Positions 14,804 through 20,025 of a stretch of DNA of 51,143 nucleotides are shown here, piece after piece. A program made the position numbers and the translations under genes. Position 1 is the first letter of the stretch. Each line of letters opens with the position of its first letter. This DNA comes from SAR86 cluster bacterium AG-313-D11 (GTDB lineage: Bacteria > Pseudomonadota > Gammaproteobacteria > Magnimaribacterales > D2472). The DNA lies in contig QBVW01000005.1 in the NCBI GenBank assembly GCA_003284215.1, positions 68,881 to 120,023 on the forward strand, read 5' to 3'. The notes beneath the pieces were generated by a model. That model was given only the letters and a program-made list of their open reading frames with translations, searched no databases and was not told the origin of the DNA.

Positions 14804-16375
14804 ATGAAATTAGATTTGGCTGAGAAAAAAGTAGATACTATTTTGGTTTTAGATTTTGGCTCTCAATATACGCAACTCATTGCTAGAAGAATTAGGGAGT
14901 TAAATGTATTTTCTTTAATACTTCCCTGGGATATCAAAAGTGAAAAAATTAAATCTTTGAACCCTAAAGGAGTCATTCTATCTGGAGGCCCTGAGTCAGT
15001 TACCGAGTTAAATACTCCCAGAATCCCTGAAATAATCTTTGAATTAGATATACCAGTACTAGGGATTTGCTATGGGATGCAAACTTTGGCAGAACAGTTT
15101 GGTGGACAAGTCTCTTCTTCAAAGAAGAAAGAATTTGGGCATGCTCAAATTCAAGTAGCGCAACCATCATTACTTTTTGATGGTTTTGCCTTAGGAACTT
15201 TTATTGATGTTTGGATGAGCCATGGTGATCATGTTTCAACGCTCCCAGATAAATTCAATTTGATAGCCTCAACTTCTTCAGCGCCAATTGCTGCCATGGA
15301 GCATATATCTAAACCTATATATGCTTTGCAATTTCATCCTGAGGTAACTCAGACAAAGCAAGGCAATATTGTCTTAGAAAATTTTATATTTAAAATATGT
15401 CAATGCATCGCACAATGGAAAATGGACGATTTAATTGAGCAAAGAATTGAAGGAATAAAAGAAAAAGTAGGTGATCAAAAAGTATTACTAGGTTTATCTG
15501 GCGGAGTTGATTCATCTGTTACAGCAATGCTTTTAGATAAAGCTATTGGAAAAAATTTAATTTGTGTTTTTGTTGATAATGGATTGCTTAGAAAAAATGA
15601 GGCTGAAGAGGTAGAAAATTTATTTAAAGATAAGATGGATTTAAACTTATTGGTAGTAGATGCAAAGAAAGCTTTTTATAGACATCTTCAAGGCATCTCA
15701 GACCCTGAGCAAAAAAGAAAAGTTATTGGCAGAACATTTATTGATATTTTTGATAATGAGGCTGCTAAATTCAAAGATGAAATTAATTTTTTAGCTCAAG
15801 GCACTATTTACCCTGATGTTATTGAATCATCTGAATCAGAGTCAAAAGAAGCTCGAGTTATCAAATCTCATCATAATGTTGGCGGCCTTCCTGATGACAT
15901 GAACATGAAATTAGTAGAACCTCTACGTGATTTATTTAAGGATGAAGTCAGGAAGATGGGTTCCATGCTTGGCCTTCCATCAGAAATGCTAAATCGGCAT
16001 CCCTTCCCAGGGCCTGGCTTAGGAGTAAGAATCCTAGGCGAGATAACTCAAGAAAAAGTTACTACTTTGCAAAATGCAGATGCAATCTTCATAGAAGAAT
16101 TAATCAACGCTAACCTTTATGACCAGGTAAGCCAAGCATTCTGTGCATACCTTCCAGTGAAGTCTGTTGGAGTAGTTGGAGATGAAAGAAGGTATGCTGA
16201 TGTAATTGCTATAAGAGCCGTAGAAACTGTTGATTTTATGACAGCCACCTGGGCAAAACTCCCATATGATTTTTTAGCACATGTCTCCAATAGAATAGTC
16301 AATGAGTCAGAGGAGGTGAGCAGGGTAGTCTATGATATTTCTAGTAAACCACCTGCCACTATTGAGTGGGAATAG
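14804..16375 (+). CDS. guaA: GMP synthase (glutamine-hydrolysing)
   Basis: Converts XMP, ATP and glutamine to GMP. The glutamine amidotransferase domain has VLGICYGMQ with the nucleophile Cys and LQFHPEV with the His. It is followed by the ATP-pyrophosphatase P-loop [10 protein letters not shown] and the C-terminal dimerisation domain ending in PPATIEWE. I chose the ATG at 14804 (523 residues), preceded by GAGAAAAG, over the in-frame TTG at 14792, which would add four residues. The gene is intact, but its last codons coincide with the left boundary repeat of an inserted element, as expected for a site-specific integration at the guaA 3' end that restores the reading frame. Confidence 0.96.
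16358..16371 (+). repeat. left end repeat (attL-like) in guaA terminus
   Basis: ACTATTGAGTGGGA lies inside the last codons of guaA (T-I-E-W-E). It is repeated exactly at 17666-17679. A further inverted CTCAATAG occurs at 16503-16510, within CTATTG-ccgct-CAATAG (16494-16510), which resembles paired core-type sites. The role as a recombination core is inferred. Confidence 0.65.
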
Positions 16376-16413
16376 TCTGTAGCCCTACAACCCCCATTCC
16401 TGCGTTATTTAGT

Positions 16414-16487
16414 AGTTACACGTTAGTTACACACCCTTTGTAACTAAAGCATTCCTTCGTCCGAGTTACACGAAAAGTTACACGAAA
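16414..16487 (+). repeat. AGTTACACG direct-repeat array, left arm
   Basis: AGTTACAC-type units begin at 16414, 16425 (AGTTACACA), 16464 and 16476. The last two form a perfect tandem 12-mer, AGTTACACGAAA x2 (16464-16487). The first pair is spaced 11 bp, and an inverted GTAACT lies at 16440-16445. Helically phased short repeats just inside an element end are typical of integrase arm-type sites, but iterated regulator operators are also possible. They are too short and closely spaced for CRISPR. Confidence 0.6.
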
Positions 16488-16526
16488 TATCTTCTATTGC
16501 CGCTCAATAGTTGCTGGCAATAAAAT

Positions 16527-17135
16527 TTAAACGAGTTCTAAAGACTCTGGTTTACGTAGAAAAAACATAGCCAAAATAATCATAGTTATCGGGAAGATAA
16601 AGATTAACGTTACTGATAAAAATACCGTCATACCTATTACGCCCTGTATCACTGACATAATGGCAAAAATCTTTAATAAGGTAGGAAGTTCAGTTGATTT
16701 CGCTAAAAGTAAAATACCTATTAACAAATCTATAATACCTAATATAACAATTGCACCGATGCCAACTGATAGATTAATCTTTAAAAAGGCGTCTTTGTTT
16801 TGCGTTACGATATTTTCCGGTAGTACAACGCTGGCTATATCAAGGAACAGGGTGCCCAACCAAAGGGTATTGATTGCAACCATAATCAATACTAACAAAT
16901 CAATATGATTAAAGTTCAACTGTTCGTTGAGAATATTTTTTAGATTGAGATAAATATAGATGGTTAATAAAAGAATAGAAGCAAACAGAATGTCGGAAAA
17001 TCCTAGAGACATCATGTCCTGCCATAATATATCGTAATCTCCAACCGATGGACTCATTCCAAGCCAGTAGATAGGGTGAGCTACCGCTACTAATATTGCT
17101 GCAACACCGGGTAACAAATAATCTTTATTCTGCAT
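16527..17135 (-). CDS. polytopic membrane protein, unrecognised, paired with Xre regulator
   Basis: About 202 residues with roughly six hydrophobic helices (near 6-26, 47-66, 76-104, 115-143, 150-172 and 174-190) and a short charged tail (RKPESLELV). I chose the ATG at 17135 because AGAGG lies 8 nt upstream; the GTG at 17168 in the same frame has no suitable site. No family is recognised. It lies 39 bp after the Xre gene on the same strand, so the two form a bicistron, an arrangement that recalls regulator plus membrane-protein pairs such as DUF2975/Xre, but I see no DUF2975 motif. It is cargo of the guaA-linked element; function unknown. Confidence 0.7.
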   Translation of the reverse strand: MQNKDYLLPGVAAILVAVAHPIYWLGMSPSVGDYDILWQDMMSLGFSDILFASILLLTIYIYLNLKNILNEQLNFNHIDLLVLIMVAINTLWLGTLFLDIASVVLPENIVTQNKDAFLKINLSVGIGAIVILGIIDLLIGILLLAKSTELPTLLKIFAIMSVIQGVIGMTVFLSVTLIFIFPITMIILAMFFLRKPESLELV

Positions 17136-17174
17136 AATTAAACCTCTAAATATAATTTTCTTAGTCACACTTCA

Positions 17175-17408
17175 TCATGAAATGCCATCAATTTTGTTTG
17201 CGTTATCACTTACATACACGAGAATATCGCCAGGCTGACAATCCAGTTCACGGCATATAGCCATCAGAGTGCTAAAGCGAATAGCCTTAACCTTACCTGT
17301 CTTTAGTAGCGACAAATTGGTTATAGAAATTCCAATTTTTTGAGATAGCTCTTTCAGAGACATCTTCTTTTTCGCCATTTCTACATCTAAAGTGATACAA
17401 ATTTCCAT
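17175..17408 (-). CDS. Xre/Cro-type HTH regulator (YozG-like)
   Basis: A compact 77-residue DNA-binding protein that is essentially one helix-turn-helix: SLKELSQKIGISITNLSLLKTGK, then the subgroup-typical KAIRFSTLMAICRELDCQPGDIL. I start it at 17408 because AGGA lies 7 nt upstream; the ATG two codons earlier would be only 1 nt from that site. It precedes the membrane-protein gene on the same strand. A perfect 7-bp-arm palindrome about 100 bp upstream (17507-17523) is a candidate operator. No dimerisation or sensor domain is seen, so the signal is unknown. Confidence 0.88.
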   Translation of the reverse strand: MEICITLDVEMAKKKMSLKELSQKIGISITNLSLLKTGKVKAIRFSTLMAICRELDCQPGDILVYVSDNANKIDGIS

Positions 17409-17506
17409 GAGCATATCCTAACCTAGGTATTTATGTTTTACAACTAATTATTATTGTTTAACATAAATTAATTGTTATTAAGCATTTAATTAGTTCTTTA
17501 AGAAAT

Positions 17507-17523
17507 GTTACAATGTTTGTAAC
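17507..17523. promoter_or_regulatory. palindromic operator candidate GTTACAA-TGT-TTGTAAC
   Basis: Perfect inverted repeat with 7-bp arms and a 3-bp centre in the gap upstream of the Xre gene. It directly precedes a TATAAT (17525-17530) that could serve rightward transcription toward the small ORF at 17567, so a bound protein would lie between a -35 and that -10. Its half-sites share GTTACA with the arm repeats. The binding protein (Xre or an integrase) is inferred. Confidence 0.5.
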
Positions 17524-17566
17524 TTATAATGTATTAAGCTGCTAATAACACTGAGGAATTGTTTTA

Positions 17567-17683
17567 ATGGGCAGAACAAAAATAGAAAGTAAGAGTTACA
17601 CGAAAGTTACACGCTTTTATTTTCGTGCTTGTAGCCCATTATCTATAAGGGTTTGTAAATCAGCGACTATTGAGTGGGAGTAA
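17567..17683 (+). CDS. possible 38-codon ORF running into the displaced guaA tail
   Basis: ATG with GAGGAA eight nt upstream and TATAAT at 17525-17530 opens a 38-codon frame. The frame starts MGRTKIESKSYTK, runs through the right-hand AGTTACACG pair, and ends in frame as K-S-A-T-I-E-W-E-stop, the displaced C-terminus of a GMP synthase. No homolog is recognised. It may be a real small protein of the element, or a chance frame joined to the end repeat. Translation signals are better than for many nearby genes, but length and content give little support. Confidence 0.3.
   Translation: MGRTKIESKSYTKVTRFYFRACSPLSIRVCKSATIEWE
17594..17613 (+). repeat. AGTTACACG direct-repeat pair, right arm
   Basis: AGTTACACGAA at 17594-17604 is followed directly by AGTTACACG at 17605-17613, an 11-bp period matching the left array in sequence and orientation. 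It lies about 60 bp inside the right end repeat. A related AGTTACAAC occurs at 17730-17738, outside that repeat. Interpreted as arm-type sites; protein unknown. Confidence 0.55.
17666..17683 (+). repeat. right end repeat (attR-like), duplicated guaA tail
   Basis: An exact copy of ACTATTGAGTGGGA followed by GTAA, so the five codons T-I-E-W-E plus stop are kept with GAG replacing GAA. Weaker coding-level similarity (K-S-A against K-P-P-A) extends about four codons upstream. It marks the right boundary of the inserted segment and implies the copy came from a slightly different guaA allele. Confidence 0.65.
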
Positions 17684-17773
17684 TTAATAACCTTATAAGT
17701 TATTGATTTTATTTAATATTTTAATAAAAAGTTACAACAAACTAACAACAAGCTAAATTTAGCGTCCCTCAAA

Positions 17774-17822
17774 CCCATACGCTATAAGAGTTTCTTTAAG
17801 GGTTAGTTAGGAGTGGGAGTAG
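17774..17822 (+). repeat. third, degenerate end repeat; rest of the 17684-17891 gap
   Basis: Imperfect copy, exactly 139 bp downstream, of 17635-17683. It shares CCCAT, three variable bases, CTATAAG, one base, GTTT, and then, at identical spacing, GAGTGGGAGTA followed by G (E-W-E-stop in frame). The ACTATT part is lost. This suggests tandem insertion remnants at the guaA end. Apart from this and the AGTTACAAC at 17730, I see nothing recognisable in 17684-17891. Confidence 0.5.
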
Positions 17823-17891
17823 TTTAAGTCTCTTAAATTCTTGCTAAATAAAGCTTTGTAATGCTTAGACTATTTTGTGTCTGGTAAGAAT

Positions 17892-19172
17892 TTAATTAGA
17901 TTCTTTATTATTTTGAATTCTTGCAGCTTTTATAAATGGCGCAAAAATAGTTCCTAGAATATACCCTGGGGCTTTTACTAAGTCTAAAAGAAATCCAATA
18001 ATCCCACAACAAACCCAATTAACTGGAAAGAGGAATTGAATTGAAATATTATTTTTTAAAGGGAAAAAGATGCCTCTATATAGAAAAGAAGCTAAGCAGA
18101 TTATTGAAACATATATTTTAGTTATATGAGGTATGTACCACACTGACTCCTCTACCCATGAGGCAAAATATCCATTCCAGTTGTAGATTACAAAAGAAAT
18201 TATTACAAAAAAAGTAATTTTATGAACATTTCTAAATATCGAGCTTTGTGATTTAGGAAGGGCGATGCGATTGTAAATCACTGATACAAGAAGTATGAGA
18301 GCAATTGATATTAACCAAATTTTTGTTATGTGGGGGATATAATAAGCACTAGTTTCCCATCCAACAATTGCGTTCCATTTTGGAATCAGGACTAATGTAA
18401 AGAGCAATATAACTATTAGGTACAAATCCTTAATTTTGTGAGAAATATCTTGGACCGCAGTATAAATTGAATAAATAAAAAATTTTTTTGCACATTGAAA
18501 AAAATTTCTTGGAAGATTTGGGTAAACTAAATATGAATTTTCAGGCGTTACAGATTCATATTGTTCATTTACTCTATTTTTCCAATCTACATCTCCGCCC
18601 GATCTTACCCCTTCAGTTATTTTGAAACCATTAAGATAATCCTTTTTTTTCATTAATGACCCAGGAGATGTCTGAATACCTTTTGCCCCAAATGAACATG
18701 CTCTTAAAAGTTTTTGAAAGTATGTATCTGCTAAATATTTGGTATTACCAAGAACAACCTCTGCATCTGTATTTTTGATGATATTACAGTAATCATTAAT
18801 CCAGTTCTCATTCGGTATAGTGGTCGCATCTAATAGAGCTATCCACTCATGCTTAGCCACCTCTACTCCATAATTTGTTGCTTCATATGGGAAGGCTCTT
18901 CCCTTAGGAGTATCTAAAAGAAGATTTTTAATAAGGGGCACTCTTTTTAAAATTAATAATAATCTATCAAATCGATACGCCCTTCCAATCCTTTTATAGG
19001 TAATAGTAAAGTTAGATTTTATAGATTCAGTTAACTTATTAATTTCATCATTTGAACTTGAATCGACTATTACAACTTCTGAGGGTAAGTTTAATTGAAG
19101 ATTGAGCGCTTTGACTGCATCACGTAAATCATTAGGGTTATCTAAGGTAGGAATAATTACACTTATATGCAT
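17892..19172 (-). CDS. family 2 glycosyltransferase with C-terminal membrane helices
   Basis: A 426-residue protein. The first 230 or so residues form a GT-A fold typical of GT2: ISVIIPTLDNPNDLRDAV at the N-terminus, VIVDSSSND, and WIALLDATTIPNENW as the nucleotide-sugar/metal (DxD-like) region. The remainder has about five hydrophobic segments, suggesting membrane anchoring or a role in lipid-linked sugar transfer. It is the first gene right of the guaA-linked repeats and opens the glycan region. It is divergent from the FkbM gene across a 100-bp gap. Donor and acceptor are unknown. Confidence 0.8.
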   Translation of the reverse strand: MHISVIIPTLDNPNDLRDAVKALNLQLNLPSEVVIVDSSSNDEINKLTESIKSNFTITYKRIGRAYRFDRLLLILKRVPLIKNLLLDTPKGRAFPYEATNYGVEVAKHEWIALLDATTIPNENWINDYCNIIKNTDAEVVLGNTKYLADTYFQKLLRACSFGAKGIQTSPGSLMKKKDYLNGFKITEGVRSGGDVDWKNRVNEQYESVTPENSYLVYPNLPRNFFQCAKKFFIYSIYTAVQDISHKIKDLYLIVILLFTLVLIPKWNAIVGWETSAYYIPHITKIWLISIALILLVSVIYNRIALPKSQSSIFRNVHKITFFVIISFVIYNWNGYFASWVEESVWYIPHITKIYVSIICLASFLYRGIFFPLKNNISIQFLFPVNWVCCGIIGFLLDLVKAPGYILGTIFAPFIKAARIQNNKESN

Positions 19173-19272
19173 TTTAAAATTAGAGCAGATCTGATATTTA
19201 ATTCAATTTATTTTACTATGATAATTTCGTTATGGTTAAAATTAGACAAACAATAGATACACCTTAAGATGT

Positions 19273-20025
19273 ATGAATATGAAAAATAGAATTAGTATTA
19301 AAAGAAGAGCTAGGTTGTTTTTAGCGTTTTTTTTGCCAAGTAAAGCTATGAAGTATTTAGGATTTATTTACGGAGCTTTGCTGCCATCAAAGAAATCCTA
19401 TTCATCCATGGGAGAAGATTTAATCATTGAGCAGTATTTTAAAGAAAAAAATATTTTACAAGGTGTATACATAGATATTGGATGTTTTCATCCCATATGG
19501 GCTTCAAATACTCATAAACTTCATAAAGAGGGGTGGACAGGTTTTTGTTTTGACATAGATCAAAGTAAATTGAATGTGATGAGATTCTTTAGAAGAAAGA
19601 ATGTTCAAACCTTTTTCCAGGCTGTCACAGCAAAGCCTAGCAAAGAACCATTTACTCATGTTTACAAATTCTTAACACCTTGGTCAGACATTGATACTTG
19701 TGACTTAGATGTGGCGAATGATTATGCTAAAAAATTTGATTTAGATTATGAGATTAGCAGGGTTCCTTCTGCTGATATAAATACAATCTTGAGTAAACTT
19801 CCAAAGTTCAATTTTTTGAATATTGATGTTGAGGGGTTAGATGAGGATATTTTAATGTCTATGGATCTTAATAAATATTCGCCGGACGTAATATTATTTG
19901 AAAATGTAGATGTATGGGGCGGAACTGAACAAATTAGGAACAAACTGGAGTTATTTTGTTATGAGAGATTATTTATTTCTTCTTTTTCAGTTTGCTATGC
20001 AAAATCAATTTTAAGGAAAATATAA
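19273..20025 (+). CDS. FkbM-family methyltransferase
   Basis: A 250-residue predicted SAM-dependent O-methyltransferase of the FkbM type, common in polysaccharide loci, where it methylates sugar hydroxyls. Visible landmarks are SSMGEDLIIEQYF, the SAM loop YIDIGCFHP (about 65-73), CFDIDQSKL, and the family C-terminal block NFLNIDVEGLDEDIL followed by PDVILFEN. The short basic N-terminus has a hydrophobic patch and may be membrane-proximal. The start lacks a good ribosome-binding site; the ATG six bases downstream is equally possible. Confidence 0.82.
   Translation: MNMKNRISIKRRARLFLAFFLPSKAMKYLGFIYGALLPSKKSYSSMGEDLIIEQYFKEKNILQGVYIDIGCFHPIWASNTHKLHKEGWTGFCFDIDQSKLNVMRFFRRKNVQTFFQAVTAKPSKEPFTHVYKFLTPWSDIDTCDLDVANDYAKKFDLDYEISRVPSADINTILSKLPKFNFLNIDVEGLDEDILMSMDLNKYSPDVILFENVDVWGGTEQIRNKLELFCYERLFISSFSVCYAKSILRKI

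Follow-up and report, generated by a model that had tools for sequence, protein, structure and literature searches.

An integrase-less cassette at the 3′ end of guaA in a SAR86 bacterium, probably mobilized in trans

SAR86 bacteria are abundant in the surface ocean, and they have small genomes and few recognized mobile elements. We analyzed a 51,143-nucleotide stretch of the genome of SAR86 cluster bacterium AG-313-D11 (contig QBVW01000005.1, positions 68,881 to 120,023), hereafter the window. Directly after guaA, the gene for GMP synthase, the window carries a small two-gene unit that lies between two copies of the guaA tail. We conclude, at a probability of about 0.82, that this unit (16358–17679) is a non-autonomous integrative cassette at the guaA 3′ end, for which a tyrosine integrase of guaA islands provides movement in trans. 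The parts read directly from sequence are the cores, the end repeats, the exact edges, the near-identity in a second host, the absence from a third and the sister cassettes, together with integrase-bearing guaA islands whose ends match those of two other cassette classes.

The duplicated tail centers on a 14-bp core, ACTATTGAGTGGGA. The original prediction for this DNA held that the last 14 bases of the guaA coding sequence recur exactly downstream and still encode T-I-E-W-E-stop. Both points hold, with the coordinates as given (Table 1): each copy of the core runs on into the end of TIEWE-stop. Allowing up to two mismatches, the window has 4 matches to the core where 0.23 are expected, and none of 100 shuffles reaches 4. 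The prediction was staked in part on the 14-mer not recurring elsewhere, and genome-wide (1,301,831 bases, 75% complete) there are exactly two exact copies; a reversed-pattern control finds none. No recombinase lies between the copies, again as foreseen. The genome's one PF00589 match, an open frame of 314 aa, is on another contig.

The unit is shared as a block. G001, a genome of another species of the genus, carries it with 5 differences over 1326 bp (16358–17683), 3 within the 1308-bp unit and 2 just after the right core. The guaA genes of the two genomes are 82.3% identical over 1553 bases. The near-identical block ends at its first mismatches, one base beyond either core. On its left the next 100 bases are 81% identical, and on its right the next 100 are not alike (23%). 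A third genome of the same genus, G015, lacks the unit. Its guaA connects, at the core, with sequence that matches window positions 17661–17755 at 93% identity, and the sequence after that core is itself a 1.85-kb cassette. In G015, guaA thus runs straight into sequence like that right of the second core. Nor are the cargo and both repeats present in all relatives, the finding that was to refute the prediction: the membrane protein occurs at full length in 2 of the 203 genomes of the order, and G015 lacks the unit. The earlier picture of a passenger, a cis-mobilizable element or a stripped remnant is supported, and neither of the tests proposed against it overturns it. Among these options, the recurrence of the unit almost unchanged in another species, where its edges coincide with the cores, favors a mobile passenger over an immobile remnant.

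An immobile remnant would have come from a larger guaA island by loss of the integrase and would now be fixed in the chromosome. The lack of a recombinase inside fits this, as does the next unit (17684–17824), which is plainly a relic; its halves match the two ends of the 1.85-kb G015 cassette at 93% and 92%, its cargo is gone, and the deletion point falls within a ~27-base repeat resembling both cassette ends. Some relatives also have decayed or hybrid ends, and in G054 only a piece resembling an integrase N terminus is left beside an end of the window cassette's own class. However, a fixed remnant would diverge along with its host. The unit is instead 99.8% identical in a host that is 18% diverged in guaA, its edges lie at the cores, its right neighbors differ and both of its ends are intact. 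We regard a dead remnant as unlikely.

A mobile unit could also have spread through homologous exchange of guaA regions, as might follow DNA uptake, with the repeats reflecting no more than an old insertion. Conserved guaA could supply homology on the left side. Exchange of this kind would carry flanking DNA along, whereas the block starts and stops at the 14-bp core, with the left flank at the 81% given above and no similarity on the right. In addition, one cassette of another type (class C) takes second place in the G030 array and first place in the G059 array, with unrelated left flanks. Homologous exchange is very improbable on these grounds, and site-specific movement of the cassette is the reading we pursue.

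The ends of the cassette resemble attachment sites. The left, attL-like end is 100% identical in G001, 88% over 103 bases in G054 and 83% over 104 bases in G030. The right, attR-like end is 92–93% identical over 97–123 bases in G030, G033, G057 and G058. The motif GTTACACG has 5 copies in the 51-kb window, both strands counted, of which 3 are in the left end and 2 in the right end. These repeats are placed like the arm sites of a tyrosine integrase. Most cassette right ends have two tandem repeats ~11–12 bases apart, an AAACCC...GGGTTT-like stretch, ~11–20 bases and then the core. The attL-like layout is similar in integrase-bearing guaA islands, but the arm repeats there differ. The original prediction was silent on the arm-like repeats at both ends and on the degenerate third core that closes the relic. 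Coordinates are collected in Table 1.

Table 1. Features of the guaA 3′ region, in window coordinates.
Feature	Coordinates	Strand	Remarks
guaA, GMP synthase, 523 aa	14804..16375	+	last codons form the target site; NCBIfam NF000848, E 1e-241
Left core ACTATTGAGTGGGA	16358..16371	+	base just before the core is the first mismatch between this genome and G001
attL-like end	16372..16500	+	box CCCTACAACCCCCATTCCTGCG at 16383–16404; box GCATTCCTTCGTC at 16449–16461; GTTACAC(G) at 16415, 16426, 16465 and 16477
Cargo gene 2, membrane protein, 202 aa	16527..17135	-	ATG at 17135; a GTG at 17168 would give 213 aa
Cargo gene 1, Cro/C1-type regulator, 79 aa	17175..17414	-	Pfam HTH_26, E 6e-23
Palindrome GTTACAA-TGT-TTGTAAC	17507..17523		upstream of the regulator gene, from sequence; possible operator
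attR-like end	17590..17665	+	GTTACACG at 17595 and 17606; AGCCC...AAGGGTTT at 17633–17654; then 11 bases to the core
Right core ACTATTGAGTGGGA	17666..17679	+	TIEWE-stop restored through 17683; base just after the core is the first mismatch to G001
Next cassette, cargo-less relic, 141 bp	17684..17824	+	ends in a degenerate third core, GAGTGGGAGTAG, at 17811–17822

The window cassette has many counterparts behind guaA. A strict core pattern, AYTATTGARTGGGARTRR, is present in 66 of the 107 genomes of the family, and its reversed control in none; at least two strict copies occur in 24 of the 107, with a few copies away from guaA. We then took 698 kb downstream of the first cores at 84 loci. The strict pattern has 56 matches there on the guaA strand and a loose pattern 126 (overlaps counted), while both give 0 on the opposite strand and 0 when reversed. 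A guaA end precedes the first core at 74 of the loci and not at the other 10 (G128, G132, G063, G122, G126 and five stray-core contigs). A guaA comparison of G128 with G131 (25%) is void because the first core of G128 is not at guaA. Frequency is taken only from 40 unselected guaA loci of the order, which were chosen from the guaA table before arrays were known and a few of which reach a contig end within ~1 kb. A further core is present at 18 of these 40, or 15 if the doubtful G006, G018 and G067 are omitted. Outside this rate stand twelve loci taken for at least two pattern matches, six taken for a core away from a known guaA end, and those of G112, G096 and G155, taken for an integrase.

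All loci together yield 68 core-to-core segments with a median length of 1.3 kb and up to four in a row. Sixty of the 68 lie in guaA-confirmed arrays, and the right core is a strict match in 56. Doubtful segments are that of G006, that of G018 (a long guaA duplication), that of G067, the second of G075, one of G059 and two of G010. A PF00589 search of the 42 segment-bearing genomes finds matches inside segments only in G112 and G155 (2 of 68). Searching by tblastn with ten integrases and one resolvase returns the same two segments, plus an integrase remnant of 47 codons in a G009 cassette, which matches an integrase start at 53% identity. The called open reading frames (ORFs; ATG starts, at least 60 aa) lie mostly on guaA's strand (92 of 117), and the genes of the window cassette, on the opposite strand, are exceptions. 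In 21 of the 65 segments that have a called ORF, the first gene starts no more than 60 bases from the core, and some ATGs overlap the guaA stop.

Ends and cargo vary separately in this set. Sorted by eye according to their repeats, the right ends fall into ten or eleven classes, for which we use labels of our own. Class A is complete in the window, G001, G030, G033 and G057, and is represented by a left end in G054 and a right end in G058. Members of one class have conserved ends but different cargo. The class A ends of the window are 85–87% identical to those of G030 and G057 over 118–180 bases, and 93% to those of G033 over ~100. The cargo between them is a regulator and a membrane protein in the window, a MAPEG-family protein in G030 and a protein without a Pfam family in G033 and G057. 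The converse is seen as well: a 469-base stretch is common to G022, G039 and G048 at 99%, yet the right end of G048 is of another class. G022 and G039 belong to different genera; their guaA ends are 74% identical over 228 bases, and their cassettes 99.5% identical. A Pfam scan covered 40 of the 117 called cassette ORFs. Twenty-seven of these 40 proteins have a family at E 0.001 or better, two being the G155 integrase and resolvase, and two more having matches only under the cut-off. Among the families are flavodoxin-like, FkbM methyltransferase, acyltransferase, amine oxidase, dienelactone hydrolase, metallo-hydrolase, nuclease and MORN.

Islands with an integrase occupy the same site. In G112 a 438-aa integrase and a serine resolvase lie directly after guaA, with relatives after guaA in G096 and G155. 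The G112 integrase has matches at E 0.001 or better in 4 of the 203 genomes of the order. In named genomes the integrase has 10 relatives, 8 of them just after guaA: in SAR86 (three), Cellvibrionales, SAR92, UBA7415, an alphaproteobacterium and Mariprofundus. The other two are L218, with no guaA within 6 kb upstream, and L223, where the sequence starts no more than 381 bases ahead of the match. At its left end, the Cellvibrionales island matches the left end of the integrase-less G009 cassette at 94% over 190 bases and that of one in G008 at 91% over 138 bases. For the SAR92, UBA7415 and SAR86 (G096) islands, the left ends are 86–89% identical over 111–125 bases to those of G142 and of a G048 site. 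By sequence comparison, two cassette end classes match the ends of integrase-bearing guaA islands. Mobilization by the host's own XerC/XerD, which is suggested by the one or two PF00589 matches of Xer-like size (~300 aa, putative XerC/XerD) that most genomes have, is the least probable of the alternatives, given islands that combine an integrase with the same core and matching ends, and long ends with class-specific arm repeats are, to our knowledge, not expected at Xer sites.

A pathway for the cassette can be drawn from these features. Site-specific recombination within the 14-bp core would insert it at the 3′ end of guaA and restore the guaA end. The cassette keeps two full attachment ends with arm-type repeats and its two genes, and has no recombinase of its own. 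An integrase from another element would bind the arm repeats and the core and excise the cassette as a circle. This helper would belong to the tyrosine integrases of guaA islands and would recognize GTTACACG through its arm-binding domain. The circle would then insert at a guaA tail, regenerating TIEWE-stop, and repeated insertion at guaA would build arrays. Binding of the repeats by an integrase, action of the helper in trans, a circular intermediate and the route between cells are inferred parts of this pathway. The mechanism is plausible because a comparable case is described in PMC9376610. There, the CR2-sul2 unit lies inside GIsul2, between att cores at the guaA 3′ end, and has no integrase of its own; the GIsul2 integrase excises and integrates it experimentally.

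Several observations weigh against this pathway. Excision, a circle and transfer were not observed, and this very cassette is present in only one other genome of the 203. No integrase was found beside GTTACACG (class A) ends when the 203 genomes were searched with both ends, and no helper with such ends was found in viral contigs (by pattern) or in phage and plasmid records (by similarity). The class A helper is a guess by family. With the islands of class H, the left end of the window shares only the box CCCTACAACCC(C/G)CATNCCTNCG (90%, 29 bases) and GCATTCCTTCGTC. A 472-aa ORF in a G084 cassette weakly matches an 'integrase repeat' model, below the cut-off. Many of the genomes are incomplete (the window's at 75%; 40 of 120 are clean and reach 90% completeness or more), and the absence of a helper therefore carries little weight in either direction.

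The searches of viral sequence gave few leads. The GTTACACG arm pattern is present in 22 viral contigs, with no guaA end in the contexts around the matches; in one of the contigs (L099) similar repeats form a longer run, where the core was not seen and an integrase was not identified. The core pattern is present in 16 viral contigs, which include guaA ends of other bacteria (by eye) and no related ends. Two specific end patterns have 0 matches each in the viral contigs. Integrase P0004 has no match among phage records, and the integrase alignment finds one distant match in the viral contigs, without an adjoining guaA.

A fragment in G054 touches on the helper. Beside the class A left end of this genome lies a 94-aa ORF (P0005; L146, 3241–3525) that scores 17.6 bits against an N-terminal profile of ten guaA integrases, where the best of 200 shuffles scores 6.4 bits. 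P0005 has no credible Pfam family. A search with it returns itself and 8 weak matches in the 203 genomes, and none in the viral contigs. The protein could be an arm-binding domain without the catalytic part, which is suggestive only. In G132 (L130) a relative of the guaA integrase follows an apparent leucine tRNA gene, identified by eye, and the integrase family may use tRNA sites too.

How does the cassette compare with known systems? Integrative and mobilizable elements (IMEs) and autonomous islands carry their own integrase, and there is none between the window cores. Phage satellites (phage-inducible chromosomal islands, PICI, and phage-inducible chromosomal minimalist islands, PICMI) fit no better: an integrase is absent, the PHROG match of the membrane protein is weak, the regulator resembles generic repressors and no phage record matches. 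Integron cassettes are short, mostly in one orientation, have a recombination site at the 3′ end and form a tandem array behind a fixed gene. The guaA cassettes are likewise short and mostly in one orientation, with a 3′-end site and tandem arrangement behind a fixed gene. They differ from integron cassettes in their guaA-tail core, in tandem-repeat arms as at phage-type sites and in having known integrases in islands at the same site.

The closest single likeness is to cis-mobilizable elements (CIMEs), which PMC5704250 describes as keeping attL and attR, lacking genes for integration and transfer, and accreting in tandem at a gene-end site. The window cassette has attL- and attR-like ends, judged by two exact cores and conserved arm-like repeats, and its two genes include no integration or transfer gene and no PF00589 match. 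In PMC5704250, CIMEs are described as products of decay of integrative and conjugative elements (ICEs) or of IMEs, which come to lie in tandem with another element. On such an origin by decay, no integrase element adjoins the window cassette, the sister cassette in G009 keeps an integrase start, and movement is unobserved. The guaA units differ from CIMEs as described there in having one to few genes, spanning dozens of genomes with about ten end classes, and rarely having an integrase in the array.

Other integrase-less units are known. CR2-sul2 shares with the window cassette its place between cores at the guaA 3′ end, but it carries a putative ISCR2-type transposase and sul2 (PMC9376610); the window cassette has neither of these and no adjoining integrase island. 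The microcin H47 island of Escherichia coli is described as small and without recombination genes, its excision and integration relying on functions elsewhere in the cell (PMC3191183). It differs in its 13-kb size and its site, and the abstract of PMC3191183 reports no family of one-gene cassettes. In Dehalococcoides, tandem units follow ssrA and are bounded by a direct repeat of the gene end; 15 of these islands are without an integration module and are suggested as possible CIMEs (PMC3146451). The system described there differs in using a serine recombinase at ssrA. Among the matches listed in the open-licence literature, judged by titles and abstract starts, we found no published account of this SAR86 guaA system. 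The single element is CIME-like, and the set of guaA cassettes with class-specific ends and helpers elsewhere exceeds the descriptions found.

A wider reading can be offered tentatively, at somewhat less than even odds. In SAR86 and other marine bacteria, guaA may serve as an integron-like platform at which small recombinase-less cassettes with class-specific ends are collected in tandem after this essential gene, many of them promoterless at the guaA stop, and moved in trans across species and genera by several rare island integrases of differing arm specificity. If true, a shared pool of cassettes of one or two genes, moved by integrases mostly in other cells, would explain gene exchange in streamlined cells nearly free of integrases. 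The guaA core with arm repeats would also mark cargo that integrase-based island finders would miss, and the specificity of helper for cassette becomes directly testable.

Turning to the cargo, the Xre regulator that had been predicted between the copies is confirmed as an HTH_26 protein of Cro/C1 type. The predicted six-helix membrane protein is indeed a membrane protein; the hydropathy scan has 6 peaks, two of them overlapping, which leaves the count at 5–6 helices. No Pfam or NCBIfam family matched it. It is present at full length in only the two genomes of the order already counted, with one further match that is weak (27%) and has internal stops. In a sample of 369 genomes of the class, relatives occur, apart from the window's own genome, in 3 genomes of one other genus (52, 40 and 33% identity), and by eye each adjoins a similar small regulator. 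In PHROG the membrane protein is matched only weakly (E 0.008); for the regulator, the matches are to generic repressor families. By similarity, the cassette has no match in phage records and one in plasmid records, 155 bases at 69%, inside the regulator gene.

Other candidate features of the ends were considered. A stem-loop at the attR end was set aside for weak support (mean z −0.71 upstream of the cores, 25 of 68 below −1). Ahead of the right core, the TIEWE frame has a median open length of 33 codons, where the other two frames have 6 and 7 (63 segments of at least ~400 nt). A short coupling ORF at the right ends was rejected, since variable columns are spread evenly over codon positions (91, 91, 87) and neither starts nor ribosome sites are conserved. 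An Rfam search of 16300–18000 gave 0 matches, no terminators were found, and promoter-like sites are no commoner than in shuffles. Inside the left end, positions 16494–16517 read P-A-T-I-E-R-Q-stop on the minus strand, an inverted copy resembling the guaA tail (83% over 24 bases). In the integrase islands, a CTACTATT(G/A)CACTTC stretch occupies much the same position.

Further copies of the guaA end were noted at several loci. A second copy of the guaA 3′ end stands beside guaA at L041 (G018; 74 codons, 70%), L061 (G049; 115 codons, 79%) and L038 (G021; 98 codons, 30%), with identities measured against the window's GuaA. At L151 (G008), L152 (G025), L155 (G010) and L156 (G024) cores lie away from a known guaA end. 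There the core is preceded by a guaA-like scrap (YDTSSK...TIEWE by eye) after another gene, and these sites are perhaps a shared second attachment platform. At L168 (G058), the last ~30 codons of guaA are missing and a class A right end follows at once, through a deletion or an assembly fault. Downstream of the window cassette, the products encoded in 17892–20025 are a family-2 glycosyltransferase and a methyltransferase of the FkbM type; a surface-glycan gene cluster may begin here.

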